Positions 28,181 through 42,412 of a stretch of DNA of 64,000 nucleotides are shown here, one piece after another. This DNA is from Pseudomonas sp. WN033. Its GTDB lineage: Bacteria > Pseudomonadota > Gammaproteobacteria > Pseudomonadales > Pseudomonadaceae. The stretch lies in assembly GCA_002287035.1 (NCBI GenBank), contig NSKG01000002.1:124001-188000 (forward strand), written 5' to 3'. Each line of letters starts with the position of its first letter. The stretch's first letter is position 1. The position numbers were made by a program, and so were the translations under genes. Under the pieces are notes generated by a model that was not told the origin of the DNA, did no database searches, and saw only the letters and a program-made list of their open reading frames with translations.

Positions 28181-28208
28181 ATAATATGACCAGTCATCTT
28201 AAAGTCAA
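28181..28208 (-). promoter_or_regulatory. Hydrolase promoter with TetR-type operator in its spacer
   Basis: On the minus strand: TTGACT (28203-28208), 16-bp spacer, TATTAT (28181-28186). The spacer is AAGATGACTGGTCA, one of seven copies of the island palindrome. The promoter faces the alpha/beta hydrolase gene. Confidence 0.72.
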
Positions 28209-28282
28209 GTGGCGCGCCCTGCCGCCCTATGTCGATTTCGATGACGCTCAAAGCCGCTAAGCAAGACCCCGCTGAGGCAAGG

Positions 28283-28311
28283 TTGACTTCTAAGACGACC
28301 GGTCATATTCT
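28283..28311 (+). promoter_or_regulatory. tetR1 promoter with TetR-type operator in its spacer
   Basis: TTGACT (28283-28288), 17-bp spacer containing AAGACGACCGGTCA, and TATTCT (28306-28311). The expected transcript start coincides with the ATG at 28319, which implies a leaderless, autoregulated mRNA. Confidence 0.72.
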
Positions 28312-28318
28312 CAAGCGC

Positions 28319-28894
28319 ATGCCAAGACCAAACGTACGAGAACAACTGCTGCACGCCGGATTAAAAACCTTCAACACGTTAGGGTTCTACGGCTGTACTG
28401 TGCAAGACATTACGCAAGCCGCTCAAGTTCCAAAGGGGTCGTTCTACAACCACTTTGAGAGCAAAGAGGCCCTTGCGATGGAGGCGCTTGAGCTTTTTTG
28501 GTCTGGCGGCGCCTCGCGACGCGCAATTTTGAGCGACAAATCGATTGACCCGGTCGAGCGCCTACGCCTGCACTTCCAGAAATTGACAAATGTGCTGGCC
28601 ACGAACAAATTTGAAGTGGGATGCCTGATCGGCAACTTCAGCTCAGAGATGTCCCGTCACCCTGACTTCCAGGATCGACTAGCACGCATATATCACGACT
28701 GGAGCCGGGCTATCGAGAACTGCATCGACGACATCACAGCAGCTGGAAGGCTGAAGATTCAAGCGACGCCAAAAGTACTTGCTGCGTTTCTAGTGAGCGC
28801 TTGGGAAGGGGCTGTTCTGCGGGCAAAGGTTGAACGCAGCGGCGCGGCTTTTGAGGAGTTTGAACAAGTAACGCTCACAGGATTTTTCGCATAA
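28319..28894 (+). CDS. TetR-family regulator 1 of the catabolic island
   Basis: Start chosen at ATG 28319 (MPRPNVREQLLHAGLKTF), because the promoter's predicted transcript begins there; ATG 28229 is in frame but lies upstream of that promoter and has no ribosome-binding site. About 191 residues. TetR helix-turn-helix with TVQDITQAAQVPKGSFYNHFESKEALA, the same recognition helix (VPKGSFYNHFESKE) as regulator 2 at 42.4 kb, followed by an all-helical ligand domain. The identical recognition helices explain why one palindrome serves the whole island. It probably responds to an electrophilic or enone substrate of the Old Yellow Enzymes (inference). Confidence 0.88.
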   Translation: MPRPNVREQLLHAGLKTFNTLGFYGCTVQDITQAAQVPKGSFYNHFESKEALAMEALELFWSGGASRRAILSDKSIDPVERLRLHFQKLTNVLATNKFEVGCLIGNFSSEMSRHPDFQDRLARIYHDWSRAIENCIDDITAAGRLKIQATPKVLAAFLVSAWEGAVLRAKVERSGAAFEEFEQVTLTGFFA

Positions 28895-28917
28895 GGGGGG
28901 TAACCCCCCTTATTTTT
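28891..28917 (+). terminator. Rho-independent terminator of tetR1
   Basis: ATAAGGGGGG / CCCCCCTTAT stem of 10 bp with a 3-base loop (28891-28913), then TTTT. It overlaps the tetR1 stop codon and separates it from the reductase gene. Confidence 0.88.
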
Positions 28918-28926
28918 CTCAACTTT

Positions 28927-28944
28927 AAGACGACTGGTCATCTT
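28927..28944 (+). promoter_or_regulatory. TetR-type operator abutting the start codon of Old Yellow Enzyme 1
   Basis: AAGACGACTGGTCATCTT lies directly before ATG 28945 and replaces the usual ribosome-binding site. It is the third of seven island palindromes. Confidence 0.72.
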
Positions 28945-30039
28945 ATGAAATTAAATACACCGTTCCAGCTAGGCCCGTGGTCGCTATCTCACCGCGTTGT
29001 AATGCCACCACTGACACGCATGCGCTCTGGAGTTGATGGCGTACCCTCCCCACTAGCCGTTGAGTACTACGGACAAAGAGCCTCAAGTGGGGGCTTGATC
29101 ATCGCGGAAGCGACTCAGATCTCGCGCCAAGGACAAGGCTACCCGCAAACACCGGGTATCTACACGGATGAGCATGTCCAAGGCTGGACAGAGATAGTTC
29201 GTGCGGTAAAGCAAAAGGGTGGAAAATTTGTTCTGCAACTCTGGCACGTCGGCCGTATTTCTCACTCATCGTTCCAGGAAGAAGGCAGCGCTCCGGTCGC
29301 ACCATCTGCGATCCCACCCGCAGGCAACGCTTTCACAAGCAACTTCAGCCGTGTTCCTTACGAGGTGCCCCACGAACTAACGGTCGACGAGATCCGCCAG
29401 ATCGTTGCTGACTACAAGGCGGCAGCTGAACGAGCTCTCCAAGCAGGGTTCGACGGCGTAGAAGTGCACGCAGCCAACGGATACTTGTTGCAGCAATTTC
29501 TTGAAGACAACTCGAACCTTCGCCAAGACCTCTATGGCGGCCCAATCGAGAACAGATCACGACTGCTGTTTGAAGTAATAGACGCGGTGGCGTCTGTGTG
29601 GCCTTTGAATCGAGTGGGCGTCAGGTTGTCACCGTTCAGCGATGTAGGCGATATGGCAGACAGCGATCCTCAAGCTCTTTATGAGCATGTCATTTCTCGC
29701 CTCTCAGAATTGAGCATCGGCTATCTCCATCTAATCGAACCGCAGGCGCGGGCTGGTCTGGTAGGTGAGCCCAACACCAGCGCGCCTAAATCTGTCTGCA
29801 CCATTTTTCGACCACTGTTCACTGGCCCCCTAATCGCATCTGGCGGCTTCACCGTCGAGAGCGCCGAAGCGGCTCTGGAAGCAGGAGTAGCTGATCTGGT
29901 TGCGTTTGGCAGGTTGTTCATCGCTAACCCAGACCTGCCAGCGCGCATCGCGTCTGGTCAACCGCTGAATGCCCCGGACCCTAAGACCTTCTATGGCGGC
30001 GGAGAAGCTGGATATACCGACTACCCGACAGTCCCATGA
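28945..30039 (+). CDS. Old Yellow Enzyme family alkene reductase 1
   Basis: About 364 residues, an FMN TIM barrel. Visible features: VVMPPLTRMRSGV (FMN binding), LWHVGRISH, the substrate-binding pair in HAANGYLLQQFLEDNSN, the YGGPIENRSR motif, and a C-terminal GRLFIANPDLP phosphate site. NemA/XenB-type enzymes reduce alpha,beta-unsaturated carbonyls and nitro compounds with NAD(P)H. The start codon follows the operator without a Shine-Dalgarno sequence. It heads a probable operon with an enoyl-CoA hydratase, a thioesterase and an MFS gene. A second copy of the family lies at 35.2-36.3 kb. Confidence 0.93.
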   Translation: MKLNTPFQLGPWSLSHRVVMPPLTRMRSGVDGVPSPLAVEYYGQRASSGGLIIAEATQISRQGQGYPQTPGIYTDEHVQGWTEIVRAVKQKGGKFVLQLWHVGRISHSSFQEEGSAPVAPSAIPPAGNAFTSNFSRVPYEVPHELTVDEIRQIVADYKAAAERALQAGFDGVEVHAANGYLLQQFLEDNSNLRQDLYGGPIENRSRLLFEVIDAVASVWPLNRVGVRLSPFSDVGDMADSDPQALYEHVISRLSELSIGYLHLIEPQARAGLVGEPNTSAPKSVCTIFRPLFTGPLIASGGFTVESAEAALEAGVADLVAFGRLFIANPDLPARIASGQPLNAPDPKTFYGGGEAGYTDYPTVP

Positions 30040-30107
30040 CCAAGCTTCTACCTAAAACACGAGAAGTACATTTCTAAATAGACCTACAAAAAACGAGGAA
30101 CAGCGAT

Positions 30108-30878
30108 ATGAGCGAGCATGTAAAAATCAGCAGTCAGAATGGCGTACTGGAAATTATTTTTGCCCGGCCAGAAAAGAAGAACGCGCTGACCAACGCCATG
30201 TACCGTGCCGCGAAGGACGCACTTGAAAGCGCCCAAACAGACAAATCTATCCGAGTCGTCCTGTTTGGTGCTGAAGGCGGAGCATTCACAGCTGGCAACG
30301 ATTTAGGCGACTTTTCAAACGCGTCCAAGCCCGACGGTGAGAAGCCGCAAGCAGGCGCATTTATCAATGCTATCGCACGAGCAGAAAAGCCGATCATCGT
30401 AGCGGTTCCGGGCATTTCTGTAGGTGTTGGTACCACCATGCTGCTGCACAGCGACCTGGTCTATGTATCAGACAACGCGAAATTGTCTGCGCCGTTTGTC
30501 AATTTGGCGCTGGTTCCTGAAGCAGGCTCTAGCCTGCTTATGCCAGCACGCATCGGCTACACGCGCGCGTTCTCGCTGTTTGCACTCGGTGAAAGCATCA
30601 CAGGCCAGGAAGCTGTCGCGCTAGGCATTGCAAACAAGGTGCTTCCACAAGATGAAGTACTGCCTGCTGCCAGAGCAGCCGCTCAAACCCTCGCCAAGAA
30701 GCCTTCTGGTTCGCTGGTCGCCACCAAGAAGCTGATGCGTGATGCCGAAACCATCCTGGCGCGCATGCAAGCCGAAAGCACCGTATTTGCCGAGAGACTC
30801 AAGAGCGATGAGGCCCGTGAAGCCTTCAGCGCATTCGCGGAACGCCGTCAGCCTGACTTCTCCAAGTTTAATTCGTAA
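30108..30878 (+). CDS. Enoyl-CoA hydratase/isomerase family protein 1
   Basis: About 256 residues from ATG 30108 behind GAGGAA. Crotonase fold with ARPEKKNALTNAMY at the N-terminus, oxyanion-hole motif AFTAGNDLGDF near residue 65 and a second loop around VPGISVGVGTTMLLHSDL. The usual Glu pair of true hydratases is not obvious (AGSSL in place of GGSxxL with one Glu, PEAGSSLLMP), so isomerase or hydratase activity cannot be told apart. It acts on acyl-CoA intermediates after the reductase step and is 68 bp downstream of Old Yellow Enzyme 1. Confidence 0.88.
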   Translation: MSEHVKISSQNGVLEIIFARPEKKNALTNAMYRAAKDALESAQTDKSIRVVLFGAEGGAFTAGNDLGDFSNASKPDGEKPQAGAFINAIARAEKPIIVAVPGISVGVGTTMLLHSDLVYVSDNAKLSAPFVNLALVPEAGSSLLMPARIGYTRAFSLFALGESITGQEAVALGIANKVLPQDEVLPAARAAAQTLAKKPSGSLVATKKLMRDAETILARMQAESTVFAERLKSDEAREAFSAFAERRQPDFSKFNS

Positions 30879-30891
30879 CGGGTACAACCAA

Positions 30892-31680
30892 ATGACTCCC
30901 TTTTCCGCTTTAACCGCTGCGATGTATGAGGACGGTGGATCCCACTTGATCAGTGTTCCCCAAGACTGGCTCCAAGGCCGTACAGCATACGGTGGTCTCT
31001 CAGCGGCACTAACATTGGAAGCTATCTACCGTAGTGAAGAGGCCCTTCCACCGCTACGCTCGGCCCAATTTTGTTTCATCGGTCCCGCAACCGGTGAACT
31101 ACGGGTATCCAACAGCGTATTGCGAAAAGGGAAGTCGACGGTTGTCGTGGGTGCAAGTCTTGACGGCGAAAGCGGGATCGCCGTCAGGTCTACCCTTTGT
31201 TTTGGGACTGGCCGCGCGTCAGCTCACAATTACAACGTATTTGAAATGCCCGTTGTTCCGGCACCAGAAAGCTGCCCGAGCTACTACACGTTCCCCAACC
31301 TGCCCAACTTCATGAGCCACTTTGACGGGCGGCTTGTACATGGAGAACGGCCGGGGACCGGCAGCGATGTTCCGGAAATGACTGTATGGGTAAAGCACCT
31401 GGATTCGGGTAAGGGACTCGACGTTGTTCGCCTTCTGGCACTTGCCGATGCCCTCCCCCCGTCATCGCTCATTATGTCAAGCGTGCCGACGGTTATCAGC
31501 ACCATGACGTGGTCCATCGACATGTTGTCCGCTGAGCCACGATCCCCGTCTGGTTGGTGGCTGGTTCGATGTGAAGCAGATACCTCCCAGAACGGTTATT
31601 CGGTACAGCGCACCACTATCTGGAACCCTGATGGCGAACCGATTCTGGTCGCCACTCAAAACGTCGCGATATTTGGATAA
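30892..31680 (+). CDS. TesB-like acyl-CoA thioesterase (double hot-dog)
   Basis: Start at ATG 30892, 13 bp past the hydratase stop; the longer frame from 30739 overlaps the hydratase. About 262 residues. Two hot-dog repeats: the first begins ISVPQDWLQGRTAYGGLSAA, the second ends with the YSVQRTTIWNPDGEPILVATQNVAIF strand, typical of the 4HBT_3/TesB-like group. It hydrolyses acyl-CoA to free acid and CoA. It is translationally close to the hydratase and the MFS gene, so it is an operon member. Confidence 0.85.
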   Translation: MTPFSALTAAMYEDGGSHLISVPQDWLQGRTAYGGLSAALTLEAIYRSEEALPPLRSAQFCFIGPATGELRVSNSVLRKGKSTVVVGASLDGESGIAVRSTLCFGTGRASAHNYNVFEMPVVPAPESCPSYYTFPNLPNFMSHFDGRLVHGERPGTGSDVPEMTVWVKHLDSGKGLDVVRLLALADALPPSSLIMSSVPTVISTMTWSIDMLSAEPRSPSGWWLVRCEADTSQNGYSVQRTTIWNPDGEPILVATQNVAIFG

Positions 31681-31685
31681 GCGCC

Positions 31686-32492
31686 ATGAACGGGAGTGAT
31701 CGAATCTCAACATCAAGGGTGTTTGCAATCGCCTGTGTCGGAACAGCGCTCCCAAACCTTGATCTTTTTAGTGTGAATATCGCACTACCTAGAATAGCGG
31801 CCGAATTCAAGGGAGTGCCACTTGATGACTTATCTTGGATCCTGAATGGTTACGCTATCGCCTACGCAGCGCTGCTGGTGTTTTTTGGCAGGTTGTCCGA
31901 AGGCTACCGCCGTGATCGCAGCTTTATCCTCGGCATCATAATCTTTTCGATGGCGTCTGCTGGCTGCGCTGCAGCTGGTAACGTGTGGAGTCTGGCTGTT
32001 TTTCACACCGCAGCTGCATTCGGTGCGGCGCTCATGACACCAACATCCATCGGGTTGCTGCTCGCAACCTTTACACCTGACCGACGGGGGGCAGCAGTAC
32101 GCAACTGGGCGGGCATTGGCGGTTTTGCTTCGGCCCTTGGCCCGCTAGTAGGAGGGTTACTCGTCACCATCGACTGGCGCTGGGTGTTTATCGTGAACGC
32201 CATGCTGGGTATGAGTGCCGCAATCATCGCATGGCGTGTCCTGCCCAACATCCCTGGGCACCCAGTAAAACGACCTAGTGTCATCGCGGCATCGTTGCTG
32301 ACCTTCGGCATCGCCGCTCTCATTTTCACGATCACCAAGGTTAATACGTGGGGTGTCCAGTCCACGGGAATTATTGCTAGCTCGGCGGCTGCCTTGGTGC
32401 TGCTGGTGATTTTTGTAGTGCATTGCTTCCGCTCGCCCAACCCTCTCTTCGCGCCCAGCTTATTCAAGATTACGCCCCAACAAAGGCCTTAG
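31686..32492 (+). pseudogene. DHA2-type MFS transporter, truncated after about 7 membrane segments
   Basis: The N-terminal about 260 residues are a good DHA2 (EmrB/QacA-like) start: NIALPRIAAEF, DLSWILNGYAIAYAALLVFFGRLSEGYRRDRSF and PLVGGLLVTIDWRWVFIVN. Full-length members have about 450-500 residues and 14 segments. The frame stops after FRSPNPLFAPSLFKI, so the C-terminal half is missing and no continuation is seen in the next 490 bp. It is last in the Old Yellow Enzyme 1 operon and probably inactive. Confidence 0.82.
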
Positions 32493-32983
32493 CGCTCGCC
32501 GCCACACCCGTGAGAGCACTATCGTTTCGGGGCAAGCTAATCAAATTGCGGCTACGGCCTCAGCTGTTTGATGATCAGCGGCATGTCAAGCCGTCCGAGC
32601 AACGGGCACTCACACAACGGAAATACCGCAAGTTTCTCTTCCGTGGTTTTCCTGTGCAGGATGCGAAGCCACCTTGACTTAAGAAACAACCAACTGACGA
32701 ACTGCAGTATTGGAGGCTCTTTGGTCGAGCCTGCGGAGAACTAGCCTGGGCGAATCATTCAAAATCAGCCATTTGCCATGAGAGAAGCGTCCAACTTCAA
32801 ATTGGTAGCAGCTACCTGCGATTCCTAGCAAATTGATCAAGCAGTGCTGGAAGACCGGTATCGCCTGGACTGAAACGCTGCGCAGGCTAGGGGCAGGCGT
32901 TGCACCCACCCTCCTCTCTGGCCCTTCCAACTGGAGACAAACGAGTCTCCTACATGAGGTCGAGCGTCTAGGGCTCCGAAAAA
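32493..32983. other. Gene-free stretch after the truncated MFS gene
   Basis: About 490 bp with no convincing gene, ribosome-binding site or hairpin. Short frames on both strands match no family that I recognise. It looks like decayed sequence left by the deletion that removed the end of the transporter gene. Confidence 0.5.
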
Positions 32984-34357
32984 TTAGCCCTTTGCAACGA
33001 CCACCAGCTTACGATTCACAAACTCCTTCAAACCCTCGTCGCCAAGCTCACGGCCGTAACCAGATCGCTTGATGCCACCAAAGGGCAGCTCTGGACGCGA
33101 AGTCGTCGGTGTATTGATGAACACCATCCCCGTCTCGATCCGAGAAGCGAGCAGGCGGGCGCGCTCAACGTTAGACGAGAAGATAGTGCCACCAAGACCG
33201 AATAGCGAATCGTTAGCCAACTCCACGACCGCATCATCGTTATCAACCACAAATACTTGCCCGACCGGTCCAAAGAACTCCTGATAGAAGGCGGGATTCT
33301 CTTTTGTAATCCCGGTCAGTAGGGTCGGCTCATAGAAGAATCCTTGACGATCAGCACGCTTTCCACCGATCAAGACTTGCGCGCCATTTCTGACAGCATC
33401 AGCAACCTGCAAAGAAAGATCGTCCAGCGCTTCCGGTGACGCCAAAGGCCCCAACGTTGTTTCCTCCAACATCGGGTCACCCATGACCACATTGCTCATG
33501 CCCGCTACGAATTGCTCGATGAACACATCAGCTACTTCACGCTGGATAACAAAGCGTTTGGCTCCAATGCAAACTTGACCTGCGTTATGAATACGAGCAG
33601 AGACGGCTGCCTGCACCGCCTTAGTAATATCTGCGTCGTCCAGAACAACAAAGACGTCACTACCACCCAGTTCGAGGGTGGATTTTTTGAGCATTTCAGA
33701 AGCTCGAGCCCCTACCTTGCTTCCAGCCCCCTCAGAGCCAGTCAACGCCACACCCTGAATCCGCGGATCAGCCAACAGGTCAGCGATTTTGGACGATGAC
33801 ACATAGAGGTTAGTGACTGCGCCATCCGGCGCTCCGGCCTGACGCACAATCTCCGCAAACAACGCAGCGCATTGAGGCACAATACCCGCATGCTTGAATA
33901 TTAGGGGGTTTCCGACAGCGATCGCTGGTACCACCACACGAATAAGCTGATAAATCGGGAAGTTCCAAGGCTCAACCGCTAGCAAAACACCAATCGGGTG
34001 GAACTCAACCCACGCCTCGCCGATGTCATTTTCGACAGGCTGCGGCTTCAAAAGAGCAGCAGCGTTGGCAGCATAATAACTAGCGATAGATGTGCAGAGG
34101 CCAACCTCTGCGCGCCCCTGAGAGACGGGCTTCCCCATTTCTAGCGCCATAGTACGCGCGAGCTCCTCACAGTTCTCGGCGAGCAATGCTGCCAGCTTCG
34201 AAAGCACTGCAAGTCGAGGGGCGATATCGCCTCGCGACCAGGTCGAATGATAAAGAGCGTCCGCCTTAGCGAGTGCGGCTTCAAGCTCAGCGGAAGTACA
34301 GTCGGGAAACTCTTGGATCAACCGCTCGGTGAAAGGATTAAGTGTTCGATACGCCAT
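32984..34357 (-). CDS. NAD(P)-dependent aldehyde (succinate-semialdehyde type) dehydrogenase
   Basis: About 457 residues. Aldehyde dehydrogenase motifs in order: PWNFPIYQLIRVVVPAIAVG near residue 130, GSEGAGSKVG (coenzyme loop) near 210, catalytic Glu in LELGGSDVFVV near 232, catalytic Cys in NAGQVCIGAKR near 266, and EEFFGPVGQV-like EFFGPVGQVF near 365. Length and the PELPFGGIKRSGYGRELG end fit the GabD/YneI branch. It oxidises an aldehyde to the acid and could act after the zinc alcohol dehydrogenase of the island. It has its own transcript, separated by a hairpin from the upstream reductase genes. Confidence 0.92.
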   Translation of the reverse strand: MAYRTLNPFTERLIQEFPDCTSAELEAALAKADALYHSTWSRGDIAPRLAVLSKLAALLAENCEELARTMALEMGKPVSQGRAEVGLCTSIASYYAANAAALLKPQPVENDIGEAWVEFHPIGVLLAVEPWNFPIYQLIRVVVPAIAVGNPLIFKHAGIVPQCAALFAEIVRQAGAPDGAVTNLYVSSSKIADLLADPRIQGVALTGSEGAGSKVGARASEMLKKSTLELGGSDVFVVLDDADITKAVQAAVSARIHNAGQVCIGAKRFVIQREVADVFIEQFVAGMSNVVMGDPMLEETTLGPLASPEALDDLSLQVADAVRNGAQVLIGGKRADRQGFFYEPTLLTGITKENPAFYQEFFGPVGQVFVVDNDDAVVELANDSLFGLGGTIFSSNVERARLLASRIETGMVFINTPTTSRPELPFGGIKRSGYGRELGDEGLKEFVNRKLVVVAKG

Positions 34358-34552: not shown

Positions 34553-35200
34553 CTATTGGCCAACAGAGAAGCGCGCCCGCTCGTGGGCCGGATTTTCCAG
34601 CTCATCCACCAACGCAATTGCATAGTCTTCAAACGACATCCAGCTCTTCCCGTTTTCATCCTTAACGAGGTTGTCGGTGTCAATGCGATAACGGCCAGTC
34701 CGTTCCCCCAGATCGATCATCATTGGAGGGCTCACATAGGTCCAGTTCAGCCCAGAGGTCTTGAGAGACTCCAGAAGTTTCATGTGGGAGCGCGCGATCG
34801 GCACCAAATGCTTCGGCCAATATTCAGAGTCGACAACCAGCAAGCCTGGTGAGAACCAAAGTGATCCACAGCCGCCGACCACAAGCAAACGGGGAACGCC
34901 GGCATCGCGCACGGCATCAATCACTTGGGCGGAAGTCCGAACCAGAATATCAGTGTCAACGTCCAGCTTGTCGCGCGGGGCACCCACTGCACTGATGACA
35001 GCATCCGCACCTTTAATGATATTTGCCAGCCGACTGACGTCGCTCAAATCGTCCTGGACCGGAGTGACAGCTGCCAGCAGCTCCTTGGGTAGCTTGGTGA
35101 GGTCACGTGCAATTGCGATCACTTCGTGACCACGGCTGACCAGTTCAGCCGCCGCGATGCTACCTCCGCGGCCGGTTGCCGCTACTACTGCAATTTTCAT
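34553..35200 (-). CDS. NAD(P)-binding atypical SDR (NmrA/YwnB-like)
   Basis: About 215 residues. N-terminal Rossmann motif AATGRGGSIAAAELVSRGHEVIAIARD, then VQDDLSDVSRL and GADAVISAVGAP, as in NAD(P)H-binding proteins of the NmrA/YwnB type. The short C-terminal domain and lack of a YxxxK pair suggest a regulator-like or reductase of unknown substrate. It lies 38 bp downstream of Old Yellow Enzyme 2, so the two are cotranscribed. Confidence 0.85.
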   Translation of the reverse strand: MKIAVVAATGRGGSIAAAELVSRGHEVIAIARDLTKLPKELLAAVTPVQDDLSDVSRLANIIKGADAVISAVGAPRDKLDVDTDILVRTSAQVIDAVRDAGVPRLLVVGGCGSLWFSPGLLVVDSEYWPKHLVPIARSHMKLLESLKTSGLNWTYVSPPMMIDLGERTGRYRIDTDNLVKDENGKSWMSFEDYAIALVDELENPAHERARFSVGQ

Positions 35201-35238: not shown

Positions 35239-36348
35239 CTACTTAGCAACGTGCTCATCTACAAAAACTGGGTAGTCGATGTAGCCTGCCGCACCGCCGC
35301 CATAGAAAGTCGCGCGGTTGTAATCGTTGAGCGGGGCGCCCAACTTAAACCGCTGTACAAGATCAGGATTCGCAATAAAGTTGCGGCCAAATCCCACTGC
35401 ATCAGCCCGACCTTCGCTGATCGCTTCTTCAGCCATCTCTTTAGTGAATCCACCAGAAAGGATCAGCGGCTTCGGCCAGAAAGGGCGCAGCTCAGCCGTT
35501 GCCTGCGGTGTCTGGACCTCCATACCAGCTCCAGAGCGCGCTTCGATAAGACTGAGATAAGCAATGTCCAGCTTATTCAGCTCACCCAGTACATAGCTGT
35601 AGAGCTTGATCGGATCGGAGTCGCCCACGTCGTTATAGGTACCGAATGGAGACAACCGAACGCCGACCCGATCAGCTCCCCAAACATCAATGACCGCTTG
35701 CGTCACCTCAAGCAGAAGACGGGCACGATTCTCAATAGAACCGCCATAGTTATCGGTCCGCTTGTTTGAACTGTCATGCAGAAACTGCTCCAGGAGATAA
35801 CCATTCGCGCCGTGTACCTCAACACCGTCGAACCCTGCTGCAAGCGCGTTACGGGCACCATCGCGGAAGGTCTTAATGATCCAAGGAATCTCATCAGGCT
35901 CTAGAGCACGCGGTGTTTCGTAGGGAACCGTTTCCCACTGAGGAGTGAAAGCAGTCAGGCTCGTAATCGGGATAGCTGAGGGAGCGACTGGCAGCAACCC
36001 GTCCGGTTGAAGACTGGAATGCGAGGAACGGCCAACATGCCAGATCTGCAGGAAGATGGTTCCACCCTTCGCATGAACCGCGTCGGTCACCTTCTTCCAA
36101 ACTGCCACTTGCTCAGCCGAATAGATACCAGGGGTTCCCGGATAGCCTTGGCCGAACGGAGTCGCCTGCGTCGCCTCAGCCACGATAAAGCCACCTTTCG
36201 TGGCGCGCTGACCATAGTACTCAGCAGCGAATTCGTTTGGAGCACTACCGACACCGGCTCGCATACGGGTAAGCGGAGGCATGACTACGCGATGGCTCAA
36301 CTCATAGCGACCGATACGTAGGGGAGTAAACAACGGAGATGCATGCAT
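35239..36348 (-). CDS. Old Yellow Enzyme family alkene reductase 2
   Basis: About 369 residues starting MHASPLFTPLRIGRYELSHR, with AAGGA ahead. The motifs parallel copy 1: VVMPPLTRMRAGVGS, IWHVGRSSH, EVHGANGYLLEQFLHDSSN, YGGSIENRARL and GRNFIANPDL. The two copies are related but clearly diverged, so they may differ in substrate rather than being a recent duplication. Expression should be under the operator at 36578-36594 through a leader of about 220 bases. Confidence 0.93.
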   Translation of the reverse strand: MHASPLFTPLRIGRYELSHRVVMPPLTRMRAGVGSAPNEFAAEYYGQRATKGGFIVAEATQATPFGQGYPGTPGIYSAEQVAVWKKVTDAVHAKGGTIFLQIWHVGRSSHSSLQPDGLLPVAPSAIPITSLTAFTPQWETVPYETPRALEPDEIPWIIKTFRDGARNALAAGFDGVEVHGANGYLLEQFLHDSSNKRTDNYGGSIENRARLLLEVTQAVIDVWGADRVGVRLSPFGTYNDVGDSDPIKLYSYVLGELNKLDIAYLSLIEARSGAGMEVQTPQATAELRPFWPKPLILSGGFTKEMAEEAISEGRADAVGFGRNFIANPDLVQRFKLGAPLNDYNRATFYGGGAAGYIDYPVFVDEHVAK

Positions 36349-36379
36349 TGGATTGGTCCTTTCGATTGATTGGTCGTCG

Positions 36380-36517
36380 TTACAGTGATGCTGTGCCAGG
36401 TAGTCGGACGCTCAGAATGTAGCCGTCGTAGCCATTGAAAATCAGGCACCGGCCATGAGCTGAGGTCATCGAGATCTGGGTTGCGCTAACCCCTAACAAC
36501 AGGCTGAGAAACGGCAT
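36380..36517 (-). CDS. Possible 45-residue ORF in the leader of Old Yellow Enzyme 2
   Basis: ATG at 36517 is preceded by GAAGGAGAAAGTG, a strong ribosome-binding site, and the frame closes with TAA at 36380. The peptide starts MPFLSLLLGVSATQIS and ends GYILSVRLPGTASL. It lies inside the mRNA leader predicted for Old Yellow Enzyme 2. It has no recognisable family. It could be a true small protein or a translated leader that affects downstream expression. Confidence 0.35.
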   Translation of the reverse strand: MPFLSLLLGVSATQISMTSAHGRCLIFNGYDGYILSVRLPGTASL

Positions 36518-36571: not shown

Positions 36572-36600
36572 ACTATGACCGGTCGTCTTGAATAAATCAA
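36572..36600 (-). promoter_or_regulatory. Old Yellow Enzyme 2 promoter with TetR-type operator in its spacer
   Basis: Minus strand: TTGATT (36595-36600), 17-bp spacer with AAGACGACCGGT, CATAGT (36572-36577). The 31-bp block is identical, except for one base, to the promoter of the CoA-transferase operon at 42261-42291. Confidence 0.72.
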
Positions 36601-36752
36601 GACTATCTCAAGAAATTTCAAAAGCCCGCATTTCTGTGAATAGTGGAGAGGTCTACACCTCTGAAACTGGAGAATCTATGGCGGCTATTTGCGAAGCCGC
36701 CTCCGGAGAGGTTGTAGCCGTGCTTGACATCCATCAGCGCATCAATCAACTT

Positions 36753-36768
36753 AAGACGACCGGTCTAA
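36753..36768 (+). promoter_or_regulatory. TetR-type operator upstream of the zinc alcohol dehydrogenase
   Basis: AAGACGACCGGTCTAA, 151 bp upstream of the start codon. TTGACA is at 36724-36729, but no convincing -10 at standard spacing was found. Confidence 0.6.
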
Positions 36769-36918
36769 GTAACTTAATAAGCAGCATGACCGCAGCAGCC
36801 GAGCTGTGATTTTGCAGCAGCAGGCTGGAGAAGAAAGGCCCTGACCTTCTCGGAAAACCCCGATCGAGTCCCACCCAGGCCGACGGGAGACTTTGAGCGC
36901 ATTACGGAGAGGACAATA

Positions 36919-38001
36919 ATGATAAGTTACGAGGTACAACAATTTGGCACCCAACTCGCCAAAACGGAACGCGAAACACCTCGCCCAGAGGGACGGCAAG
37001 TGTTGTTGCGCGTTCTGGCGACAGGTGTCTGCCACACCGACATCCATATCTGGCAGGGCGGATATGACCTCGGAGGTGGCGAACAACTGTCGATGGCGGC
37101 GCGGGGGATCTCACCACCGCTGACTCTGGGCCACGAAATTGTTGGTGAAGTGCTCGCCACCGGCCCTCATGCGGAAACGGTGTCACTAGGTCGACGGTAT
37201 CTGATCTATCCCTGGATTGGCTGTGGCACTTGCAAGGTCTGCCTGCGCGAGACCGAGCAGGTTTGCACGTCTCCGCGCTACCTTGGAATCATGCAGCCAG
37301 GCGGGTACAGCGACCACGTACTGGTGCCCGACTCTCGCTACCTCATCGACATCGGTGACATGCCAGCAGAACAGGCCGCGCCTTATGCTTGTTCGGGGCT
37401 AACGGTTTATAGCGCACTACGTAAGATCAACCCAGCCGTGCTTGCGGAGGAACCTGTGGTCATCTTCGGTGCTGGCGGGCTTGGCCTTATGGCTATCACA
37501 CTGCTGGACGTGCTTGGTGGCGCAGGCGCGGTGGTTGTTGAGACGGACGCAACACGCCGTGAAGCTGCCGTAGCGGCAGGTGCCATCGCAGCTATCGACC
37601 CCCTTGTTCCCGATTTCGCGGATCAGGTCAAGAACGCCGCGGGAGGGAATGTCTGGGCCGTGCTCGATTGCGTTGGTGCTGCGCAAACAGTACAGGCGTC
37701 GCTGGACTTGCTGGTTAAAGGCGGCCAATTCATTCAGGTTGGGCTTCTCGGAGGCCGTATCCAGATCCCAACCCCAGTAATGCCGCTCCGCTCGATAAGT
37801 TATCACGGCTCCTTCGCTGGCAGCCTCCCTGAACTACAGGATCTGATGACTTTGGTGGGTCAGCGCCCACCTCTTGCAATCCCTACCTGCTGCCGCCCCT
37901 TGGAAACAGCCTCCGCTGCGCTCAACGATCTTGAGCACGGTCGAGTGGTCGGGCGATTGATCCTACAACCTCATCAACACCAGAGCAGTCTGGAGTCCTA
38001 A
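36919..38001 (+). CDS. Zinc-dependent medium-chain alcohol dehydrogenase
   Basis: About 360 residues from ATG 36919 behind GGAGAGG. Catalytic zinc ligands Cys in TGVCHTDIHIW and His in GHEIVGEVL; structural zinc cysteines in CGTCKVCLRETEQVC (C-x2-C-x2-C-x7-C). The Rossmann motif GAGGLGLMAI is followed by VVVETDATRREAA; the acidic residue after beta-2 favours NAD over NADP. It oxidises an alcohol to aldehyde or ketone. It is divergent from Old Yellow Enzyme 2 across a control region with two operators, so the two are likely induced together. Confidence 0.9.
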   Translation: MISYEVQQFGTQLAKTERETPRPEGRQVLLRVLATGVCHTDIHIWQGGYDLGGGEQLSMAARGISPPLTLGHEIVGEVLATGPHAETVSLGRRYLIYPWIGCGTCKVCLRETEQVCTSPRYLGIMQPGGYSDHVLVPDSRYLIDIGDMPAEQAAPYACSGLTVYSALRKINPAVLAEEPVVIFGAGGLGLMAITLLDVLGGAGAVVVETDATRREAAVAAGAIAAIDPLVPDFADQVKNAAGGNVWAVLDCVGAAQTVQASLDLLVKGGQFIQVGLLGGRIQIPTPVMPLRSISYHGSFAGSLPELQDLMTLVGQRPPLAIPTCCRPLETASAALNDLEHGRVVGRLILQPHQHQSSLES

Positions 38002-38040
38002 GGAGCCCCTCCATACTGCTCTAAAACGCTAGACATGACA

Positions 38041-38074
38041 GCACCAGCAGGTAAAGAAGAGTACCCGCTGGTGC
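38041..38074. terminator. Bidirectional terminator hairpin
   Basis: GCACCAGCAGGTA / TACCCGCTGGTGC stem of 13 pairs with one mismatch, 8-base loop, between convergent alcohol dehydrogenase and MFS genes. Confidence 0.55.
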
Positions 38075-38158
38075 CCACCGTCTTGCCTAATCGAAACATC
38101 CAAGCACCCATAACCTGCGACAAAAGACGTATTGCCACGATTACGGCTACTCCCTCGC

Positions 38159-39526
38159 CTACCCGTTATCTGCCAACTCTGAAGCTCGCCCGGCATCAGG
38201 AGCCGATTGTACAGCCGCCGACGCGCGATGGTTGATCGTCGCGACAGCAACTGCGCCTACCACACTAGCAACTGCAATAGCCAAAAAGCTCTGTTGCGGC
38301 GTCAGTTGAAGTGCCACCAGCCCACCGATAAAAACCGGCGCGAGCATGCCGCCAATGCGTCCAGCAGAGTAGTTCAACCCAACCGCAGTGGTGCGTATAT
38401 CGTTTGGATAGAACATCCCACCATAGGCATTCGTGAGAATCTGAGTCCCCAGCGTAAAGGCCCCCAGGGCTATTACCAATAGAGTCAGCAGATTCGGAGC
38501 GAGACCAGATGCGATGGCGATTAGCGAAACTGCTGCTAGTCCATAAAACGCGAACAACACCCACTTGGGGTGCGCCTTATCAGACAGCCACCCTCCGCAG
38601 GTTGCTCCTAGTACAGCGCCCACATTGTAGTAGATGAGAAAGTTTAGAGCAGAGTCCAAGCTATAGCCGAGTGCTCCCATCAACTTGGTGAGCCAAGTAT
38701 TAAGCGCGTAGAGCATGAACAAACCACAGAAATTTGCGACCCAAAGCATCACCGTGCTAACCGCACGGCCATCCTGAAAAATCTTTCCGATACTAATAGC
38801 AGCACTACCCTCTCCATGCCTCTCGTGGCCAAAACCAAACCTCGTGCGCTCATCGATAGGATAGCTCGGGTCAATCTTGCTAACGATTTCGCGCAATTCA
38901 GCGTGACGCCCTTGCTTAATCAGTAGCGTTAACGACTCCGGGATGGCATTCAAAAGAAAAGGGATCAACAACACCGGTGTTCCAGCAGCAAAGAAGACAG
39001 CTTGCCATCCATGTGACTCGATTAGCCCTTTACCAAGAAGAGCAGCCGCCACACCACCCACCGCGTAACCACATGAGAAGAGAGCAAGGGAGCGCGTCCT
39101 AATTGAGCGCGGGGCATACTCCGCCACCACTGAAATCAGGATAGGTATCAACCCCCCTAGGCCAAGCCCTGCGAGAAATCGCAAGATACCGAAGGTGATT
39201 GGATCTCTCACTAATCCAGCCGCCGCGGTTAGCAGGCTAAAAGAAGCAACTGAGACCGCGACCGTAACCTTACGGCCGAAGCGATCGGCGAGGACTCCAA
39301 ATAGTGCTGACCCACATGCCATGCCTATTAGGCTCGCACTGGCCAACGCTCCTGCCGTTGTTGCACTGATCTGCAGATCATTCATGATCGCAGGCAGGGC
39401 CGCGCCTGTAACCGCAATGTCGTAGCCGTCTATCACCAGAATAATGCTTGCCCAGAAGATGACCAAACCGTGAAACCGGTTGAACTTGGCCTGATCTACG
39501 AGCTCTTGGATATTTATTATTTTCAT
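38159..39526 (-). CDS. MFS transporter, aromatic acid:H+ symporter (AAHS) type
   Basis: Start at ATG 39526 behind AGGAAAG; the longer frame to 39703 adds 59 unlikely residues. About 455 residues with 12 hydrophobic segments. The family-defining DGYDIAVTGAALPAIM in segment 1 and GVLADRFGRK between segments 2 and 3 match AAHS members such as PcaK and BenK, with FLAGLGLGGLIPI in segment 4. It would import an aromatic or cyclic carboxylic acid with protons. It lies downstream of the CoA-transferase gene on the same strand, 426 bp away. Confidence 0.9.
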   Translation of the reverse strand: MKIINIQELVDQAKFNRFHGLVIFWASIILVIDGYDIAVTGAALPAIMNDLQISATTAGALASASLIGMACGSALFGVLADRFGRKVTVAVSVASFSLLTAAAGLVRDPITFGILRFLAGLGLGGLIPILISVVAEYAPRSIRTRSLALFSCGYAVGGVAAALLGKGLIESHGWQAVFFAAGTPVLLIPFLLNAIPESLTLLIKQGRHAELREIVSKIDPSYPIDERTRFGFGHERHGEGSAAISIGKIFQDGRAVSTVMLWVANFCGLFMLYALNTWLTKLMGALGYSLDSALNFLIYYNVGAVLGATCGGWLSDKAHPKWVLFAFYGLAAVSLIAIASGLAPNLLTLLVIALGAFTLGTQILTNAYGGMFYPNDIRTTAVGLNYSAGRIGGMLAPVFIGGLVALQLTPQQSFLAIAVASVVGAVAVATINHRASAAVQSAPDAGRASELADNG

Positions 39527-39952
39527 TTCTTTCCTCGTATTACGTATTGATCGCAAATCACACGCTTTTTGGCTCAACGTTGCGGCATGCGGCCAAATTG
39601 CAGTTGCGTAACGCGTATCACCGGCCCGACCGCGGAGCCTCTCCACGTCGTACCGCGCTACTTGAATGCTTGGGTGACCTAAAATTCCGAGAGAAGACAT
39701 CATGGGCGCAAAGGATCTGGCCTTGATCCCCTCAGGGCATTACCGAAAGAAAACCTGAGCTAGTAGCCAGGGACTGGTCGCTGACCGCCACGCCTCAAAC
39801 GGGTGATAGCCCCATAATTACTGTCGTCGCACCCGAATGCCCCGACCCAGCCGAGACATTCGACGCGTTGACAATGGAAGGAAGGTCAATTGGAAGGTTC
39901 AGAAAACGTTGCTGGCATGCGATCCAAAAATCGCTACCTGCCGCAGACCGGG
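39527..39952. other. 426-bp gap between CoA-transferase and MFS genes
   Basis: No gene, operator copy or strong hairpin was recognised. Both flanking genes read on the minus strand. The gap probably holds a separate MFS promoter or the remains of a lost gene. Confidence 0.45.
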
Positions 39953-41215
39953 CTAGCCAACGCCAACACTTGACGCCGTTTCTGGCAGGCTGAGAGCACC
40001 CCGCTCCTTCAGCTGCTGCAGTTGCTCATCACTCATACTCAGCAACTCCTGCAGCACTGAACGGGTGTCTTCACCAAGCGTAGGCGGCCGGGACCGAATC
40101 GGCAGTCGATGACCGTCCAGACGGTATGGAGGCGCATATACAGGCGTTGTACCCTCAACAGGATGGGCCATCTCCTGCACCAAATTTCCTCGACGAGTGC
40201 GTTCGCTGGTTAATGCCTCGTGCAGGCCTGACACCTTACCGCACGGAATCCCGGCTGAGGTCATCCGTTCGAGCAAGTCGTCACGCTTGAAGCCAAGCAA
40301 CAATTCGTTGAGCAACTCAACCAAATCGACCCTGTTTTGTGAGCGGCCCACATTTGTTGAGAAACGCTGATCATCCGCTATATCTGGACGCTCAAGAACC
40401 TGTCGACAAAACTTATCGAATTGTGAGTTGTTACCCACAGCGATCATCAGAGGTCCATCTGCTGCTTCAAACATCGCATAAGGCACAATCGAAGGGTGCG
40501 CATTCCCATAGCGAGGAGAGTCGTGCCCCAACTTCAGCGCATCAAGGCCCTGATAGCTCGTAACCATGACTCCACAATCGTATAGAGCCATTTCGATAAG
40601 ACGACCTAGGCCAGTCTGTTCACGACGGAACAGCGCAGCAAGCACCGCCTGAGCCGCATACATACCCGTCATGAAGTCGACGACCGAGACACCGAACTTT
40701 AGTGGTGGCCGATTTGCTTCGCCATTGATAGCCATCAGTCCGGATTCGCCTTGGATGATCAGGTCATAACCCGGCCGAGTCGCTTCGGGACCGCTGGAGT
40801 CGTATCCAGCGATAGCACAATAGACGATGTCATTCTTGATGGCCTTGAGCTGCTCGTAACCTACGCCTAGCTTCTCTGCATCACCTGTCTTGAAGTTGTG
40901 AATGACAACATCGAACTGCGGCAGCATTTCATAAATGATCCTGACTGCATCAGGATTTTTGAGGTCCAGGGTGACGGATCGCTTATTGCGATTCATTCCA
41001 TTGAAGTAGGTAGTCTCTGTTTTGCCGATTCGGATACCCCAGTCCCGCGTATCATCTCCACGACTTGGATGCTCAATTTTCACTACATCTGCGCCGAAGT
41101 CAGCGAGCACCTGGCCACACAGAGGACCAGCGAAAACACGGGAGAGATCAAGGACACGGACATCCTGAAGCGGAAGATCTAAGCCCTTCGGAAGGTCGGA
41201 ATTATAGGCTGCCAT
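39953..41215 (-). CDS. CaiB/BaiF family (class III) CoA-transferase
   Basis: Start at ATG 41215 (MAAYNSDLPKGL), overlapping the end of the upstream hydratase by 14 bp; an earlier in-frame start at 41239 is possible. About 420 residues. Family motifs: RVLDLSRVFAGPLCGQVLADFGADVVKIE at the N-terminus, NRNKRSVTLDLK, and the catalytic Asp in GYDLIIQGESGLMA. It moves CoA between carboxylic acids, giving an activated substrate without ATP. Together with the hydratase it forms an operon whose promoter carries the TetR palindrome. The acid substrate is not known. Confidence 0.92.
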   Translation of the reverse strand: MAAYNSDLPKGLDLPLQDVRVLDLSRVFAGPLCGQVLADFGADVVKIEHPSRGDDTRDWGIRIGKTETTYFNGMNRNKRSVTLDLKNPDAVRIIYEMLPQFDVVIHNFKTGDAEKLGVGYEQLKAIKNDIVYCAIAGYDSSGPEATRPGYDLIIQGESGLMAINGEANRPPLKFGVSVVDFMTGMYAAQAVLAALFRREQTGLGRLIEMALYDCGVMVTSYQGLDALKLGHDSPRYGNAHPSIVPYAMFEAADGPLMIAVGNNSQFDKFCRQVLERPDIADDQRFSTNVGRSQNRVDLVELLNELLLGFKRDDLLERMTSAGIPCGKVSGLHEALTSERTRRGNLVQEMAHPVEGTTPVYAPPYRLDGHRLPIRSRPPTLGEDTRSVLQELLSMSDEQLQQLKERGALSLPETASSVGVG

Positions 41216-42053
41216 TATCTTCACCTTTCTGTTGGCCATTTTGGATTTTCAGCTCGCCAGCGGTGCGTAGCGCTGTGTAATCCGCCTGCCGCTTCTCAAG
41301 GAACGAGTTAATCCCCTCGCGTGACTCTTCCGATTCCTGCGAAAGGACCATGTATCGTGCTTCCAGCTCCAGCTGGGCATCCAACGTATTGCGCTGCCCC
41401 TGCCAACAGAGATCTTTGATACGAGACATTGCCCGCTCGGGGCCAGTGGCAATCTGAGCTGCGAGAGCGATTGCCTCGGCCAACGCTTGGCCGTGCTCGA
41501 CTAAACGATTGACCGGACCCAAAGCATGAAGCCGCTCGCCACTTAGCCGCTCTCCAGTCAGGCACAGTTCAGTCAGCACCTGCCGGGATACGAACTCAGC
41601 AAGAAAAGCTGTAGCACCGCCATCCGGTGTCAGTCCGACCTTGACATAAGCGGCGGAAAAGACAGAGGTCCTCGCCGCCACAAGCATGTCGCAGGCAAGC
41701 GCAAGTGACAGACCCGCCCCGGCGGCGGCGCCTTCCACTGCTGCGATAACCGGCTTCGGAAAGTCACGCACGCTACGAATTAGATTGTGCAGGCCTTCAA
41801 GCTTCTCTCTGCGCTCCCCAATCGGAAGCTCGCGGCGCGTAGCAAGTTGGCGCAGGTCTCCTCCCGAGCAAAAATGCCCACCCTCTCCCGTCAGAACGAC
41901 AGCACCCACAGTCGAGTCTGCAGCGGCGTCGCTTAGCGCGCCTGAAAGCGCTTCATAGAATTCCGGCGAGAGCGCGTTTCGTGCGGCGACGTTGTTGTTG
42001 GACAACACCAGCACAGCACCCTCGCGGCGCAACAATATTGCTTGGCTTGCCAT
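41202..42053 (-). CDS. Enoyl-CoA hydratase/isomerase family protein 2
   Basis: Start at ATG 42053 behind GGAGGA, spacing 8. About 283 residues. Crotonase fold with NNNVAARNALSPEFYEAL, oxyanion loop GGHFCSGGDLRQLA, and the second loop AAVEGAAAGAGLSLALACDM; TPDGGATAFLAEF has Asp where hydratases have Glu, which resembles isomerase or PaaG-like members. It is the first gene of the CoA-transferase operon, with a leader of about 200 bases. Confidence 0.9.
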   Translation of the reverse strand: MASQAILLRREGAVLVLSNNNVAARNALSPEFYEALSGALSDAAADSTVGAVVLTGEGGHFCSGGDLRQLATRRELPIGERREKLEGLHNLIRSVRDFPKPVIAAVEGAAAGAGLSLALACDMLVAARTSVFSAAYVKVGLTPDGGATAFLAEFVSRQVLTELCLTGERLSGERLHALGPVNRLVEHGQALAEAIALAAQIATGPERAMSRIKDLCWQGQRNTLDAQLELEARYMVLSQESEESREGINSFLEKRQADYTALRTAGELKIQNGQQKGEDNGSL

Positions 42054-42261
42054 CGAGTTTTCCTCCATTCATTCATTGCTTTCGGCTCGGCACAAGTTTT
42101 CGAGCGCGTTGAGCATGGTTTTTATTCGTAAAGCGCACACGGCCATCAAAACGACCGACATGTTTCATGTATGAAACGAGGCGTCTCTTTTCTAGGGTTG
42201 ATTGAGGCTGGAGAGATCCAGCCGCTCAGTAGGCTCTGTAGCATCTGCATCAACTTAACTT

Positions 42262-42290
42262 ACTATGACCGGTCGTCTTGATTAAATCAA
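42262..42290 (-). promoter_or_regulatory. CoA-transferase operon promoter with TetR-type operator in its spacer
   Basis: Minus strand: TTGATT (42285-42290), 17-bp spacer with AAGACGACCGGT, CATAGT (42262-42267). The architecture is the same as at 36572-36600. Confidence 0.72.
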
Positions 42291-42396
42291 GCACTCACCC
42301 ATTCCAATCCAGAATGAGCTAAAACATCCAAAACGGTCTTTTGTGGTAGCCTTTTCAAGAACACACTTGACAAACGCAGGCAGTGACGGAAAATTA

Positions 42397-42412
42397 AAGA
42401 CGACCGGTCAAA
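42397..42412 (+). promoter_or_regulatory. TetR-type operator in front of tetR2
   Basis: AAGACGACCGGTCAAA, 22 bp ahead of the tetR2 start codon. A perfect TTGACA lies at 42367-42372, so the operator would be near the transcription start and allow autoregulation. Confidence 0.65.

Follow-up and report, generated by a model that had tools for sequence, protein, structure and literature searches.

TetR repressors are usually treated as systems of one regulator, one operator and one gene cluster. The catabolic island of Pseudomonas sp. WN033 raises the question of whether two such regulators may work through a single operator set. It lies in a window of 64,000 nt (assembly GCA_002287035.1, contig NSKG01000002.1, positions 124,001-188,000), which comprises the whole stretch of DNA analysed here. 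The first-pass annotation of this DNA described seven copies of one palindrome in the control regions of the island operons, together with two TetR proteins that would read different signals on one operator set.

Seven predicted operator copies in a catabolic island

The number of copies was confirmed. The window contains seven matches to the 16-mer at up to three mismatches, compared with a mean of 0.23 in 100 dinucleotide shuffles, none of which reached seven. Three copies show no mismatch, one shows a single mismatch and three show two, and the unit is best described as an imperfect 18-bp palindrome centred on GACYGGTC. The positions originally given hold for the plus-strand copies, but those on the minus strand were off by 2-4 bases (Table 1). 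All sites fall within 14 kb, each upstream of one apparent transcription unit and one per unit, so that a single operator type fronts all seven apparent units, as the proposed control-region placement implied. In the operator of the zinc alcohol dehydrogenase (ADH), the right half resembles the GTCTA variant seen in operators of other TetR proteins.

Table 1. Candidate operators, genes and other features of the island (window coordinates).
Feature	Position	Strand	Remarks
Alpha/beta hydrolase (LipP1-like esterase)	27118..28059	-	score below LipP1-like family cut-off
Operator at esterase promoter, AAGATGACTGGTCATATT	28183..28200 (16-mer 28185-28200)	-	inside TTGACT-16-TATTAT
Operator at tetR1 promoter, AAGACGACCGGTCATATT	28292..28309 (16-mer 28292-28307)	+	inside TTGACT-17-TATTCT
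TetR1, 191 aa from ATG 28319	28319..28894	+	PF00440 + PF16925
Hairpin and T-run in tetR1/OYE1 gap, likely terminator	28891..28913	+	region-wide terminator-like sites at shuffle level
Operator immediately 5' of OYE1 start codon, past likely tetR1 terminator	28927..28944 (16-mer 28927-28942)	+	
OYE1, old yellow enzyme / N-ethylmaleimide reductase type	28945..30039	+	score below family cut-off
ECH1, enoyl-CoA hydratase type	30108..30878	+	score below cut-offs of profiles matched
Acyl-CoA thioesterase family	30889..31680	+	start assumed at ~30889, ORF open from 30739
DHA2-type MFS gene, truncated	31686..32492	+	
Aldehyde dehydrogenase (ALDH)	32984..34357	-	
NAD(P)H-binding protein	34553..35200	-	
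OYE2, old yellow enzyme	35239..36348	-	score below family cut-off
Operator of OYE2-NAD(P)H-binding-ALDH genes	36572..36589 (16-mer 36574-36589)	-	
Operator 5' of ADH, AAGACGACCGGTCTAAGT	36753..36770 (16-mer 36753-36768)	+	
Zinc alcohol dehydrogenase (ADH)	36919..38001	+	
MFS transporter, nearest aromatic acid/H+ symport type	38159..39703	-	start probably further in
Family III CoA-transferase	39953..41239	-	
ECH2, enoyl-CoA hydratase/isomerase family	41202..42068	-	
Operator of ECH2-CoA-transferase genes, MFS gene downstream	42262..42279 (16-mer 42264-42279)	-	
Operator of tetR2	42397..42414 (16-mer 42397-42412)	+	just past predicted -10, TTGACA-16-GAAAAT
TetR2, start GTG 42422 or ATG 42437	42422..43051	+	PF00440 + PF16925

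Within the whole genome (4,155,219 bases), the core AAGAYGACYGGTC is confined to these seven places, with a single match for the reversed control pattern. The motif thus does not recur at similar frequency elsewhere, an outcome that had been named as evidence against a regulon. A genome scan with the 16-mer at up to three mismatches gave 29 matches, including the seven, compared with 113 for the reversed control. The weak matches therefore represent no excess, and they were ruled out as further regulon members, with one exception: contig 17 has a third TetR gene, whose two sites account for three of the 29 rows. The third TetR-OYE pair of the WN033 genome has variant sites. Among relatives from the genus, each of 36 had at most one site.

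Four copies had been placed exactly inside a -35/-10 spacer. Such a promoter can be drawn at the esterase, TetR1, OYE2 and ECH2 sites, but only two are fair matches to the consensus (10/12 and 9/12), the other two being weak (8/12). No good spacer-type promoter was found at the tetR2 and ADH sites, and a general promoter scan of the region gave no excess (six, compared with a shuffle mean of 9.0), with three of the six located at operators. TTGAC recurs at a similar distance from the tetR2-type operator in five relatives, and TTGA[CT] lies within 20 nt upstream of 51 of 130 operator-pattern matches, in which palindromic sites may be counted twice, compared with 99 of 3,560 random positions. 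Since ATG 28319 follows the -10 element by only 7 nt, the tetR1 transcript is probably leaderless; the first ATG of this reading frame, found ahead of the operator at 28229, is an unlikely start.

The best profile for both OYE1 (368.8) and OYE2 (395.3) is N-ethylmaleimide reductase, with a cut-off of 403, and both proteins carry the motif of the GxxDYP subgroup near their ends (GYTDYP and GYIDYP, respectively). IS genes adjoin the island, which the first-pass annotation presented as mobile. Plasmid DNA matched it in 30 records; in the 15 listed, all matches are limited to a segment of IS3 sequence, some 300 bases long, and the idea of a close island copy on plasmids was dropped on this basis. 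A duplication linking the OYE2/ADH and ECH2/tetR2 control regions is likewise unsupported, because 174 of 500 shuffles reach the alignment score once the operators are masked.

A predicted clade-wide operator associated with a recognition helix

TetR1 and TetR2 both score above the gathering threshold for the DNA-binding domain PF00440 and the C-terminal domain PF16925, identifying them as TetR-family proteins of the TetR_C_13 type. They are 35% identical overall and fall into separate clades, with L093 (59%) as the closest relative found for TetR1 and L018-L023 (61-66%) for TetR2. Both contain the recognition helix VPKGSFYNHFESKE, as first noted. In addition, a conserved cysteine is present in all 148 TetR rows of the alignment column, including both island proteins (one of 149 rows, whose extracted sequence was too short, was left out). 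The assertion that the two proteins differ in their ligand domains was not borne out as stated, given 35% identity, the same Pfam domain and the same conserved cysteine. As both keep this invariant residue, the two proteins may, but need not, read different signals. Ten TetR matches were listed in the WN033 genome itself; the helix is readable in seven, two of which have the Asn-helix, whereas the helix region of the other three could not be aligned.

Using a PWM built from the seven window sites (score of at least 14), an operator was detected near the TetR start in 108 of 149 homologue rows, four of them from WN033 itself (one a repeat), but in only 5 of 462 control stretches; it was missing in 41 of the 149 rows. 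The sample that was not drawn by helix peptide (L099-L127, L137-L159) had it in 24 of 52 rows. The exact 18-mer AAGACGACCGGTCATATT lies upstream of both TetR1-like and TetR2-like proteins, and relatives of either type elsewhere have CG-centred, TG-centred and exactly identical sites. The motif is best read as the predicted operator shared by a TetR clade with members in several phyla; this recurrence rules out an island-specific motif, and with it the notion of an island signature. No description of the full AAGAYGACYGGTCAT operator was found in the accessible parts of the open-access literature searched.

The operator appears to follow the recognition helix. It was present at the same PWM threshold in 91 of the 100 rows with a readable Asn-helix, while the nine rows without it include L065, which has just 20 bases upstream, and L029, in which an exact copy lies about 1.5 kb upstream. 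In the protein-first sample, scored with a broad operator expression, the operator type accompanied the Asn-helix in 8 of 10 rows and other helices in 4 of 33 (43 of 52 rows readable, nine dropped because the helix expression was unmatched); the corresponding p = 0.0001 is generous, because the sequences are related. When the motif was taken as the starting point, a family TetR was found at 10 of 22 distinct places, and all ten have the FYN[HY]F helix. This set comprises 26 loci of 27 places outside WN033, four of which repeat another's neighbourhood, and omits the site of G787, a genome that had been picked for its TetR. At the remaining 12, no TetR of the family lies within 1.5 kb, though one of them has such a gene about 2.1 kb away. 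Starting from the old yellow enzyme, no operator was found within 3.5 kb in six OYE2 plasmid relatives chosen from 40 listed, so the link connects the operator with the TetR protein rather than with the OYE. TetR1 and TetR2 both fit the Asn-helix clade with AAGAYGACYGGTCAT, each combining the FYN[HY]F helix with a candidate operator at its own promoter.

A probable shared regulon and its alternatives

The pair of OYE2 and NAD(P)H-binding genes occurs with the operator beside either regulator type. Relatives of OYE2 (70-74%) and the NAD(P)H-binding protein (55-58%) accompany a TetR2-type gene in L018, L019, L020, L021 and L023, and a TetR1-type gene in L093 (Pseudomonas sp. C1C7; 71% and 55%). 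The TetR1-type protein is the only TetR of this helix found in the L093 genome, as is the TetR2-type protein in the genomes of L018, L019, L020 and L021. In L020, an MFS relative (71%) likewise stands beside the TetR2-type gene, with an operator to itself, as does a thioesterase relative (53%) that follows an operator and CoA-transferase genes; in WN033, both counterparts lie on the side of TetR1. Shared use of the seven sites is likely because this gene pair stands with the operator beside either TetR type. Moreover, as the site belongs to a widespread repressor group and not to the island alone, the data suggest that either repressor may be able to read all seven. Two such TetRs in one genome are rare here: each of 20 other genomes contains only one. 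L090 was rejected as a second case, because the partner has a different helix (PQGSFTNHFASKE); both proteins also share one operator there. The concept of two TetRs on one operator set is backed by the sites, the helix and the exchange around the OYE2 pair, but its island-specificity and separate signals are not. The design is unusual with respect to these 20 genomes, but it has a precedent in the Thermus proteins TTHB023 and SbtR, as far as the accessible parts of the reports go.

We consider it probable that the island combines two AcuR/NemR-like TetR-OYE modules, each with its own repressor, that have expanded into one cross-repressed regulon on predicted shared operators. One site per apparent unit, the co-occurrence of operator and helix in the clade and the natural exchange of regulators on one gene pair are computed observations; for binding, repression, cross-repression and the signals of TetR1 and TetR2, we infer the following. 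Dimers of both proteins would recognise the 18-bp operator AAGAYGACYGGTCATATT via the same recognition helix, and the bound repressor would block RNA polymerase, within the -35/-10 spacer at several units and just past the -10 element at tetR2. Since the operator is also present at both tetR promoters, each repressor would be expected to repress itself, the other TetR and every enzyme operon. The inducer may be a substrate or an intermediate with a reactive character; the best candidate is an electrophilic enone or enal on which the OYEs act. It would either react with the conserved cysteine or bind close by, in one protein or both, and thereby trigger their release. With both repressors abundant, full promoter opening would occur only upon release of both. 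Expression levels could let one repressor dominate. It is conceivable, but doubtful, that the repressors, which are distantly related, respond to different inducers while occupying one set of seven operators, those at the two tetR promoters among them. The island would then act as an AND gate that needs both chemical signals to open; mixed occupancy or heterodimers might play a part, and the third TetR-OYE pair might be loosely coupled via its near-identical sites.

Insulated modules are an unlikely alternative, in which flanking bases, expression level or affinity would restrict the control exerted by each TetR in vivo to the genes around it. Conservation of the clade operator across phyla means that similar operators are expected without joint use, such TetRs are single in the 20 other genomes, and the site centres are TG in two of the three sites around tetR1/OYE1 but CG in the four nearer tetR2. 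However, the relatives of TetR1 and TetR2 do not keep to this division of centres and even use identical sites, the OYE2 gene pair occurs beside either type, and the near-identical 18 bp leave small scope for discrimination. That just one TetR works on this set, the other being non-functional or unexpressed, seems improbable. The visibly truncated MFS gene indicates that some decay has happened in the island, but both tetR reading frames are intact, with both TetR domains, the helix and the conserved cysteine, and an operator has been kept at the promoter of each. It is very improbable that the sites are targets of another protein or an effect of chance or composition: the 12 motif-first places lacking a nearby family TetR are close to the reversed-control level in the same scans (10 matches), but the occurrence of seven sites in 14 kb and zero elsewhere in the genome, as well as the high frequency with which the motif accompanies these TetR genes in several phyla, argue against it.

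Across several phyla, this repressor clade appears to have conserved its operator with little change, and the operator is linked to a short signature in the helix. Regulator types may therefore be swappable between clusters, with possible cross-talk within one genome, and operator prediction from the helix could become feasible. If the two TetR-OYE modules indeed form one regulon, the island would provide a natural test case for two paralogous sensors sharing one operator set.

Relation to known TetR systems

In Escherichia coli, the electrophile-sensing TetR protein NemR is encoded beside the OYE NemA; its structure (4yze) was found by sequence. The island resembles this system in that TetR adjoins OYE and that a cysteine appears in the same aligned GC motif in TetR1, TetR2 and NemR, at a position we take to be that of the NemR sensing cysteine, Cys106. 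The helices differ, with FYHYF in NemR and FYNHF in the island.

The following comparisons draw on the accessible parts of the papers cited. AcuR, from the acuR-acuI-dddL operon of Rhodobacter sphaeroides, has an operator overlapping its own promoter, a leaderless tetR transcript and induction by acrylate, a reactive unsaturated compound (PMC3017554). It provides the nearest NCBIfam profile for the island TetRs and shares with them the operator at the own promoter and, probably, the leaderless transcript. However, its profile NF051457 scores only 130.7 (TetR1) and 167.8 (TetR2) at a cut-off of 247, its operator TAATAGAC-N6-GTCTATTA is unlike the seven sites in spacing and outer bases (PMC3017554), and the island has two regulators and no acuI. 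On the YhdH acrylyl-CoA reductase model, the zinc dehydrogenase reaches 44.7 versus 297.25, and no other acuI-type reductase was found among the island genes profiled. XdpR, widespread in proteobacteria with its xdo operon, controls an OYE of the GxxDYP subgroup together with a dehydrogenase (PMC5891007), a combination of GxxDYP OYEs, dehydrogenase and TetR also seen in the island. Its predicted operator TCATGA-N6-TCATGA, in contrast, is a single copy with one regulator (PMC5891007), and none was found in the seven island sites +/- 30 bases.

AltR of Pantoea ananatis is a NemR-like TetR with autorepression, several operators in its cluster and a conserved cysteine required for induction (PMC13178969). 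NemR-likeness, the repetition of the operator within a single cluster and the conserved cysteine recur in the island, where autorepression is predicted as well, but AltR acts as the single regulator on CAATCTAC-N6-GTAGATTG, with thiosulfinates as signal (PMC13178969). PaaR, a catabolic TetR-type repressor of Burkholderia cenocepacia, uses the inverted repeat ACCGACCGGTCGGT between the -35 and -10 elements of several promoters; its operator core, the only part compared, is GACCGGTC as in the island, whereas the outer bases, the phenylacetate pathway and the single regulator set it apart (PMC2770484). In vitro, TTHB023 and SbtR of Thermus thermophilus bind common sites, of which ATGACCGGTCAGTCAG is an example, and co-regulation is possible (PMC7022988, PMC4948773). 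They match the arrangement predicted for the island, two TetR-family proteins on common sites with the core TGACCGGTCA, but differ in controlling fatty-acid genes, in a consensus that is not the same for the two proteins and in not belonging to one gene island. As far as these sources go, precedents thus exist both for the core, in the PaaR operator, and for two TetRs on common sites, in Thermus.

Seven operator copies in the catabolic island

The seven motif copies proposed in the first-pass annotation for the island, a cluster of catabolic enzyme genes in the window (~27-43 kb) containing two TetR genes, were reproduced at ≤3 mismatches; the expectation from shuffled sequences is 0.23, and no shuffle out of 100 gave as many as seven. 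Similar frequencies elsewhere in the genome, named there as a reason to abandon the proposal, were not observed: the core AAGAYGACYGGTC is confined to these seven places in all 4,155,219 bases. Comparison of the copies defines the operator as an imperfect 18-bp palindrome with the centre GACYGGTC. One copy precedes each of the apparent transcription units, whose limits were read from gene order (see table), and a hairpin and a T-run are located between tetR1 and OYE1 (OYE, old yellow enzyme).

Four copies had also been placed within the -35/-10 spacer of a readable promoter, an arrangement with fair candidates for the esterase gene and tetR1 and weaker ones for OYE2 and the enoyl-CoA hydratase-type gene ECH2. 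At tetR2, a predicted -10 element is followed by the operator, and TTGAC is found at a similar distance in tetR2 relatives at five loci from other genomes (L018, L019, L021, L022, L023). TTGA[CT] lies ≤20 nt upstream of 51 of the 130 operator-pattern matches from related loci and the window, compared with 99 of 3,560 random positions; a promoter scan covering the entire region gave no excess over shuffles. Since its ATG at 28319 is situated only 7 nt past the -10 element, the tetR1 mRNA is probably leaderless, a property also reported for the acuR transcript of the AcuR system (PMC3017554). In five relatives, OYE2 is nearer to the operator than in the window.

Features of the island, its surroundings and a further TetR-OYE pair
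Feature	Location	Description
Esterase		operator-fronted unit; operator between TTGACT and TATTAT (10/12)
tetR1	28319-28894 (+)	operator-fronted unit; operator between TTGACT and TATTCT (9/12)
OYE1-ECH1-thioesterase-MFS		operator-fronted unit
OYE2-NAD(P)H-binding-ALDH		operator-fronted unit
Alcohol dehydrogenase		operator-fronted unit
ECH2-CoA-transferase		operator-fronted unit; downstream MFS gene may have its own promoter
tetR2	42422-43051 (+)	operator-fronted unit
OYE2 and ECH2 promoters		possible but weaker: TTGATT paired with CATAGT or TAGTAT (8/12)
Alcohol dehydrogenase site	36753-36770	hybrid between two operator types: AAGAC on the left, GTCTA on the right
MFS gene, truncated	31686-32492	corresponds to residues 18-282 of a relative with 480 residues (L020), then stops
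45-codon ORF	36380-36517 (-)	ribosome-binding-like sequence; between operator and OYE2
IS3-type transposase fragment	43239-43589	beside tetR2 end of island
Xre/MbcA/ParS-type antitoxin-like gene	43737-44195	adjoins island
IS21-type pair (IstB and integrase-like)	45503-47950	beside tetR2 end of island
Third TetR-OYE pair	contig 17, 446190-448028	own genome (G000); positions 5191-7029 of locus L272

Operator type and recognition helix

TetR1 and TetR2 both contain PF00440 and PF16925 and share 35% identity across 187 aligned residues (24/60 in the first 60). AcuR is the top NCBIfam profile for both, with scores well under its cut-off, and the closest solved sequences are 3bru and NemR (4yze), one of whose cysteines aligns with a GC-motif cysteine kept in all 148 aligned rows. 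A tree built from 95 rows places TetR1 in a supported set of 14, next to Pseudomonas sp. C1C7, and TetR2 in a separate one of 7, nearest to an unclassified Pseudomonadota MAG, Rhizobium, Paraburkholderia and Aquitalea. The two proteins are not recent duplicates.

The operator recurs across the TetR clade. Using a matrix built from the seven window sites, a site scoring ≥14 between -300 and +40 relative to the estimated start was detected in 108 of 149 TetR homologue rows (including four own-genome rows, one a repeat), leaving 41 without one, versus 5 of 462 control stretches. The main locus set (the best 80 of 529) is biased because its retrieval relied in part on the peptide FYNHFESK; in a protein-first set, 24 of 52 rows pass the threshold. 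The identical 18-mer is present in Pseudomonadota, Actinomycetota and Deinococcota; variants differing by one base occur in Cyanobacteriota and Myxococcota.

Operator type follows the recognition helix. Sites are found in 91 of 100 rows with an Asn helix, and the key-position Asn is carried by 88 of the 93 readable helices in AAGAYGACYGGTCAT-type rows (broad expression) and by 0 of 14 in rows with the operator TAGAC-N5-GTCTA. In the protein-first subset, the AAGAYGACYGGTCAT type accompanies 8/10 Asn rows versus 4/33 others, and the 26 rows with an HY helix comprise 12 with TAGAC-N5-GTCTA, 4 with the N6 form, 2 with the AAGAYGACYGGTCAT type and 8 with none of these. A motif-first search yielded 26 loci (22 distinct places) with 10 family TetRs, all showing FYN[HY]F; the remaining 12 lacked a family TetR inside 1.5 kb, a number close to that of the reversed-pattern control (10 matches) in the searches where they arose, those of phylum genomes and of the order of G787, a genome chosen for its TetR. 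The relatives search gave 8 reversed-control matches and no isolated site. The TetR relatives at L137, L141, L142, L143 and L148 have a different palindrome at their start, AATACGTACGTACGTATT (one base differs in L141), and the genus relatives L129, L131 and L132 carry a single AAGACGACTGGTCAT adjoining another Asn-helix TetR, 36-39% identical to TetR2.

Two regulators and their probably shared targets

The same targets with the same operator are found beside either regulator type, since the OYE2-NAD(P)H-binding pair is accompanied by a divergent TetR2-type gene at L018, L019 (there followed by ALDH), L020, L021 and L023, with two operators in between, and by a TetR1-type gene in the neighbourhood at L093 (Pseudomonas sp. 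C1C7), where the pair has an operator and esterase and thioesterase relatives are also present. A search of the C1C7 genome yielded one further paralogue, with the helix FYHFF and a variant operator. In Bradyrhizobium (L045, L048, L049, L050), a TetR1-type gene precedes OYE1, with two operators. The operator was absent within 3.5 kb of six of six OYE2 relatives on plasmids.

Exact AAGAYGACYGGTCAT matches number five in the own genome, ≤1 per genome among 57 further relatives and 397 further phylum genomes, ≤2 in 300 genomes from the order of G787 and 0-3 in 33 genomes behind TetR loci. Two such TetRs in one island are rare in the sample examined, because each of 20 genomes, chosen by us from those behind the best 80 of 529 loci, has exactly one KGSFYNHFESK TetR among its listed paralogues (50 matches at E ≤ 1e-12, all inspected; the partner TetR at L090 has a different helix), and the own genome has two (10 TetR matches, 3 unreadable over the helix).

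TetR1 and TetR2 likely bind the operators jointly, and their ligands may differ. Most simply, two TetR-OYE modules of a known kind, comparable to AcuR, NemR, XdpR/xdo and AltR, would have been fused into a single regulon whose repressors are interchangeable; its logic might be that of an AND gate, of redundancy or of one repressor dominating. Weighing against this reading or restricting it are the 41 of 149 rows that lack a site, the operator-free OYE relatives on plasmids and the lack of support for a duplication of control regions. Neither the core nor double TetR occupancy is unprecedented, as a GACCGGTC core in the -35/-10 spacer has been described for PaaR of Burkholderia cenocepacia (site ACCGACCGGTCGGT; PMC2770484) and in vitro binding of common sites such as ATGACCGGTCAGTCAG for two TetR proteins of Thermus thermophilus, TTHB023 and SbtR (PMC7022988, PMC4948773). 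The comparison covered the operator core and its placement in the former case and the shared sites in the latter.

The TetR on contig 17 of the own genome (PF16925, helix FYHYFESKE) is ~32% identical to TetR2 and precedes another OYE-family gene (PF00724). Its sites, GAGATGACCGGTCGTATA and TAGACGACCGGTCAACTG, are close variants of the island operator, so that this pair may be weakly coupled to the island.
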